In this document: piece by piece, positions 53,566-64,000 of the stretch | Layout: every line of letters begins with the position of its first letter | Numbering within the stretch: position 1 is the stretch's first letter | Notes under the pieces: generated by a model | The model's database searches: none | What the model was told of the DNA's origin: nothing | What the model saw: the letters and a program-made list of their open reading frames with translations, nothing else | Assembly: GCF_040436345.1 (NCBI RefSeq) | Contig: NC_133223.1 | Location: 16,049,613 to 16,113,612 of the forward strand | Length of the DNA stretch: 64,000 nt | Direction of reading: 5' to 3' | DNA from: Pagrus major | Lineage: Eukaryota > Chordata > Actinopteri > Spariformes > Sparidae | Program-made: the position numbers and the translations under genes

Positions 53566-64000
<10,435 letters not shown>

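Follow-up and report, generated by a model that had tools for sequence, protein, structure and literature searches.

Splicing that alters the C-terminal end of a synaptic protein has been described in several genes. In GRIN1 (GluN1), exon 19 is lengthened on its 5' side by an alternative acceptor, which changes the reading frame and exchanges one C-terminus for another (excerpted text of PMC8257547). In GluA2-long and GluA4-long, splicing sets the presence of a PDZ-binding C-terminus; both forms lose a PDZ motif, and for GluA2-long the alternative site is a donor of the penultimate exon (same source). The frmpd4 gene of the fish Pagrus major, which is described here, belongs to this known kind. 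Similar to GRIN1, an alternative acceptor would shift the frame and exchange the C-terminus, and similar to GluA2-long and GluA4-long, splicing would decide whether a PDZ-binding end is present, but by a tandem acceptor instead of an alternative donor. The alternative sites of GRIN1 are far apart and its tails are short, whereas the two acceptors of frmpd4 lie 5 nt apart, the stop codon reached through the first also provides the second, and the tail gained would be 402 residues long. Tandem 3' splice sites, both of the NAGNAG type and with larger spacings, resemble frmpd4 in that AGs a few bases apart share a branch point and a pyrimidine tract. Most of them alter one or a few residues; the 5-nt step in frmpd4 would swap the whole protein end. 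What appears to be new is that the sites are 5 nt apart, that a stop codon would serve as acceptor, that the alternative tail is so large, and that a paralogue has an internal intron as the counterpart.

The C-terminus of mammalian Preso/FRMPD4 binds PSD-95, and Preso without its final residues failed to promote PSD-95 complexes (excerpted text of PMC6591282). FRMPD4 has been described as a cause of intellectual disability and epilepsy (title of PMC13060437), and whirlin binding via C-terminal PDZ-binding motifs has been mentioned (excerpt of the same paper). Two human RefSeq transcripts, NM_014728.3 and NM_001368397.1, have a common numbering at residue 700 (excerpt of PMC9981998). Among the titles and abstract beginnings of the matches listed in literature searches, we found no report of the frmpd4 splice choice, no paper joining FRMPD4 with ETTV, and none joining FRMPD1, FRMPD3, and FRMPD4. 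RefSeq or Ensembl may already list a long form of FRMPD4.

The window, that is, the whole stretch of DNA that was analyzed, comprised 64,000 nt of Pagrus major NC_133223.1 (16,049,613–16,113,612) and contained frmpd4 on the minus strand. The comparisons between genes below were made within this one genome and used its DNA sequence. We identified the gene as frmpd4 because human FRMPD4 peptides matched the exon at 57913–56729 (4wnd, 4wng, and 4wne, with E values of 4.1e-10, 5.3e-10, and 3.6e-4, respectively) and because the upstream exons encode a FERM domain (FERM_M, E = 9e-20; FERM_C_FAK1, E = 9.4e-9; RA_2, E = 3.1e-8; all three above their own cut-offs). The peptide matches place an LGN/GPSM2-binding segment, as in human FRMPD4, inside exon 10. 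The PDZ and WW domains of FRMPD4 are expected upstream, past the window end at 64000. Ten upstream exons (63201 to 56729) were set by eye at GT-AG junctions and formed a single open frame of 3193 nt.

Beside frmpd4, two other long frames on the minus strand (40212–43331 and 46528–49737) contained leucine-rich repeats and a TIR domain and were identified as Toll-like receptors. The only NCBIfam matches, to bacterial repeat proteins, were far below cut-offs and were ignored. In the human genome, TLR7/8 presumably adjoin FRMPD4.

The last intron of frmpd4 and its surroundings contained the following features.

56729–57913, minus strand: penultimate exon (exon 10), 1185 nt, phase 1 at both ends, with an open frame and GT-AG junctions
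56721–56735, minus strand: donor, ACCACAG then gtaaaact, exon end at 56729
54779–56728, minus strand: last intron to the first acceptor (AG1), 1950 nt, or 1955 nt if it runs to the second (AG2)
54774–54813, minus strand: 3' splice-site block, with a branch-point-like CTTAAC, a pyrimidine tract, AG1, and TGTAG
54779–54780, minus strand: AG1, exon start at 54778, predicted product KIKETTV-stop
54774–54776, minus strand: TAG, the short-form stop, whose AG (54775–54774) is the candidate acceptor AG2, exon start at 54773

Exon 10 ended in KIKETT plus the first base of the next codon. On the minus strand, the exon sequence before the donor at 56729 was ...AAAGAAACCACAG, followed by gtaaaact, and the 3' end of the intron was ...TACTACCCCTAG (AG at 54780–54779), followed by TGTAG and then CTTGCACACAG, with CTTGC directly after TGTAG. 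The AGs at 54780–54779 and 54775–54774 thus lie behind one tract as a tandem alternative 3' splice site. Splicing to AG1 completes a GTG codon with TAG next to it, giving a coding length of 3198 nt including the stop (1065 aa in the window). Splicing to AG2 gives KIKETTA-CTQLKK... and 4401 nt including the stop (1466 aa in the window), and in this long form 402 residues stand in place of Val. An earlier note on this DNA had reported two AGs five bases apart at the end of the last intron, a KIKETTV end with an immediate TAG from the first and an open frame of 402 codons from the second, and coding lengths of 3198 and 4401 nt. Positions 54780–54774 agreed with it base for base, both frames were reproduced exactly, and both lengths were obtained again by exon assembly. 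That the choice of acceptor sets the PDZ-ligand end, as that note had also proposed, follows from the sequence and is paralleled by the same binary outcome in a paralogue, while the use of both acceptors is what we infer. The role of the stop codon TAG as the second acceptor and the paralogue with the same choice are points added here.

A class I PDZ ligand has the form S/T-x-hydrophobic-COOH, with S or T at position -2 and a hydrophobic C-terminal residue, and the KETTV-stop of the short form fits this pattern. Judged by its sequence, the short form, ending in E-T-T-V, would be a PSD-95 ligand; mammalian FRMPD4 presumably also ends in ETTV. Among the 132 AGs in 56728–54600, scored with a matrix typed from recall, AG1 ranked 3 and AG2 ranked 16. 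By site strength, AG1 would be the major site, and since the context of AG2 appears weak, the long form could be minor. The short-form stop cannot turn into TAA or TGA here without loss of AG2, because the AG of TAG is itself the second acceptor. By itself, an AG five bases past an acceptor would be nothing unusual. Chance does not account for the long frame that this one opens, which is matched in three paralogues, or for the recurrence of the 40 nt at AG1 at the homologous position of a paralogue, where Val-stop again results.

Other transcript forms are also conceivable at this locus. If the exon ending at 58346 is left unspliced, its frame runs on to a stop, with AATAAA at 58253–58248 after it, and intronic polyadenylation at 58248–58346 giving a short isoform is possible. 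Skipping of exon 10 keeps the frame (1185 nt, phase 1 at each end). The preceding exon would then lead to ESSTV-stop if joined to AG1, an end that also fits a class I PDZ ligand, and into the long frame if joined to AG2.

The extension reached through AG2 contained two features.

53566–54773, minus strand: long last-exon frame, consisting of a split Ala codon and 401 codons, with TAA at 53568–53566
53569–54120, minus strand: C-terminal 184 aa of the extension, a conserved region with 22 invariant columns and predicted long helices

A protein search of the fish's own genome (786 Mb, 25 contigs) with a 400-residue extension query, in which only the best candidates were scored, recovered its own locus and three others, here called C24 (43%, E = 1.8e-61), C18 (33%, E = 3.0e-22), and C1 (32%, E = 6.4e-6). 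The paralogue matches each lay within a long open frame, and none of the four matches had an internal stop. Between frmpd4 and C24, 151 of 345 aligned codons encoded the same residue (~44% identity). The two tails had pN of 0.39 and pS of 0.83 (the latter saturated), and identities at the three codon positions of 54%, 66%, and 33%, respectively. An alignment of the four paralogues, which C18 and C1 entered as their C-terminal ~210 residues only, had 22 invariant columns between query residues 228 and 397. The first ~46 residues of the extension had no counterpart in the C24 paralogue. These data indicate that the extension is under purifying selection at the protein level, and a frame constrained as protein must be reachable from some transcript. 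Relatives outside this genome were searched for with query P0001 in genome contigs (45 pattern matches, 0 confirmed) and viral contigs (6 matches, 0 confirmed), and with the four-paralogue alignment A1 in genome contigs (25 matches, 0 confirmed).

AlphaFold2, run on the single sequence of the C-terminal 184 residues, predicted six helices with modest confidence (mean pLDDT 63), and structure comparison of the predicted region returned generic helical bundles only. Such a C-terminal helical region may be common to the FRMPD1/3/4-type family. The FERM C-lobe of frmpd4 (63201–59408) matches the Pfam model of the FAK1/PYK2 C-lobe (FERM_C_FAK1, E = 9.4e-9), and in FAK a FERM domain is paired with a C-terminal helical bundle. 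This pairing parallels the FERM domain and predicted helical tail of the long frmpd4 form, perhaps by coincidence. At the end of the frame, the long-form TAA (53568–53566) sits within an AATAAA (53570–53565), and more poly(A)-like hexamers start at 53412, 53159, 53052, and 53043.

The C24 paralogue (locus L005) appears to offer the same two outcomes through an intron that lies within an exon. Its last 1129 codons formed one open frame (L005 1478–4867) across both candidate splice sites, which is the arrangement of an exitron. The frmpd4 and C24 proteins aligned up to KETTG, and at the place of the frmpd4 donor the C24 exon contained KHKETTG, written AAAGAGACCACAG then GTACTGG. A candidate 3' splice site, CCTAATGATTCTCTTTGTTTCTCTGCTGCCCCCAG then TGTAAG, was located 742 nt downstream of the C24 donor (exon to 3598 at the donor and from 2855 at the acceptor, in L005 numbering), so that the candidate junction would join C24:8285097 to 8284354. 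The spliced reading gives KETTV-stop (TAA), again with the class I PDZ ligand pattern, and the unspliced reading gives the long frame. C24 has TAA where frmpd4 has TAG, and there is therefore no AG at the place of AG2; the next C24 AG, 6 nt on, would exit the long frame (KETTVVNEQTSTPSH-stop). In C24, retention would thus take the place of a tandem AG as the source of the long form, and splicing would yield the short form. Among the 186 AGs after KETT in its exon, the C24 acceptor ranked first (matrix typed from recall) and joins to KETTV-stop; the donor GTACTG was weak. The 250 C24 residues between the splice sites did not credibly match the frmpd4 intron (best E = 0.14) or the last exons of C18 and C1 (best E = 0.13). 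We liken C24 to the GRIN2A exitron, in which 343 nt are cut from the last canonical exon, giving GluN2A-short with a frameshifted, shorter C-terminus (excerpted text of PMC8257547). GRIN2A encodes a receptor subunit, and unlike our proposal for C24, the excerpted text does not mention the gain of a PDZ ligand (PMC8257547).

The 3' splice sites of the two genes were compared directly. The AG1 block of frmpd4 and L005 2890–2851 were identical at 28 of 40 nt without gaps over an interval that was picked after the likeness had been seen, and all 12 differences were transitions. With the C24 site as reference, AG1 ranked first both among the 8579 AGs of the 64-kb window and among 127,920 sliding positions, the runner-up scoring 24 in each case; with the frmpd4 site as reference, the C24 site ranked first among the 1392 AGs of L005 (runner-up 20). 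No such block was found in C18 (L006, 1431 AGs, best 23/40) or C1 (L007, 1428 AGs, best 20/40). The donor ACCACAG/GTA was also present at the homologous place in C24 (21/30 nt, the best in its 10 kb, runner-up 20), a similarity that by itself is weak and not decisive. The block is intron in frmpd4 and coding in C24, so the likeness does not come from shared protein sequence and fits a splice function. A splice function is likewise indicated by the 70% identity of the block against 33% at third codon positions. Because Val-stop and the splice site have been kept while silent positions are ~33% identical, it is very likely that frmpd4 uses AG1, and likely that the internal intron of the C24 paralogue is real. 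The same binary outcome in the paralogue makes it very unlikely that AG1 is a chance AG.

The best explanation of these observations is probably a tandem-acceptor switch in frmpd4 with a choice shared by its paralogue. One branch point and one pyrimidine tract in the last intron would serve two acceptors 5 nt apart. Use of AG1 would give KETTV and a stop, a class I PDZ ligand and hence the PSD-95-binding form. AG2, lying inside the TAG stop, would remove Val and the stop and open the long frame, such that the ligand is lost and the helical C-terminal region is gained. AG2 appears to be the simplest entry into the maintained frame, and its phase corresponds to the frame that C24 reads unspliced. 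A stop in the last exon spares an mRNA from nonsense-mediated decay, and since both stops are in the last exon, neither mRNA should be a target. In C24, the homologous sites lie in one open exon, which would end in KETTV-stop if spliced and carry on into the long form if retained; the frmpd4 intron is noncoding, and the tandem AG would fill the role that retention has in C24.

A real possibility, with somewhat less than an even chance, is that both acceptors are used as unregulated tandem noise at a fixed ratio set by site strengths and no regulatory switch exists. Short-distance tandem acceptors are often chosen at a roughly fixed ratio, as this reading would have it. However, the paralogue reaches the same two outcomes by other means, which suggests that both products matter, and this does not by itself imply regulation. 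The choice between the two acceptors may be regulated.

It is unlikely that AG1 alone is used from exon 10 and 56729 and 54773 are never joined, the extension being reached by way of an alternative promoter, exon 10 skipping, or a further exon hidden in the intron. AG2 is a weak site, as this route would expect, and other phase-1 donors could feed the long frame because exon 10, whose length is divisible by three, begins and ends in phase 1. However, every such route would still have to use an acceptor that opens the long frame, and the acceptor identified is AG2, which belongs to the conserved 3' splice site; further exons in the 1950-nt intron were looked for by comparison with the paralogue only.

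The clear maintenance of the long frame as protein would also suit the use of AG2 alone in this fish, with the KETTV-stop of AG1 a coincidence and no PDZ-ligand form. We consider this very improbable, because the AG1 block, Val and stop included, is kept at 28/40 in the paralogue against ~33% at third codon positions, and mammalian FRMPD4 is known for its PSD-95-binding C-terminal end. Least probable of all, with hardly a chance, is that the two pyrimidine-rich sites, compared over an interval chosen afterwards, are alike through tract composition only and the paralogue is uninformative on frmpd4, given that ten other frmpd4 acceptors scored only 10–22 of 40 against the C24 site, only 1 of 1,000,000 simulated pyrimidine-rich acceptors reached 28, and the branch-point-like CYTAAY and the TGTA after AG are shared as well.

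Under the tandem-acceptor switch, the choice would predate the split of frmpd4 and the C24 paralogue. In the FERM exons, the aligned pieces of C24, C18, and C1 were identical to frmpd4 at 287/352, 179/376, and 42/93 residues, respectively, with one C18 piece overlapping others and C1 taken from only 10 kb. The LGN-binding FRMPD4 peptides had no match (E up to 1) in the last exon of C24 (L005 1481–4867), and likewise none in that of C18, while the C1 gene matched such peptides weakly (FRMPD1 4g2v, E = 0.62; FRMPD4 4wnd, E = 0.74). Flanking genes were named from open frames read by eye among twenty flanking loci. An exon with an MRG domain, possibly msl3, was found ~70–85 kb upstream of the C24 paralogue (C24:8371402), and in the human genome MSL3 presumably adjoins FRMPD4. 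C18 was flanked by a PRPS-type gene 4–5 kb downstream and then by mitochondrial-carrier and SLAIN-type genes; these neighbours did not fix its name, and a search for the HCCS family was of no help. The C24 paralogue could be either a second teleost frmpd4 or frmpd3. Besides the teleost genome duplication, there were earlier vertebrate genome duplications, and whether the switch dates to the teleost or to an earlier vertebrate genome duplication depends on the identity of C24. Either of the two arrangements could be the older one.

We lean towards the view that an ancient alternative, in which the protein ends either in a tag that docks to PSD-95 or in a helical tail, was kept after duplication by two splicing devices, an intra-exon intron in one gene and a stop-codon tandem acceptor in the other. 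If this is true, part of FRMPD4 function would be set by a 5-nt splice choice and would be missed by work on the short form only. The locus would also be a clear and testable example of a codon that serves both as stop and as splice acceptor, and frmpd4 and its paralogue would show how duplicated genes retain a single choice of isoforms through two mechanisms.
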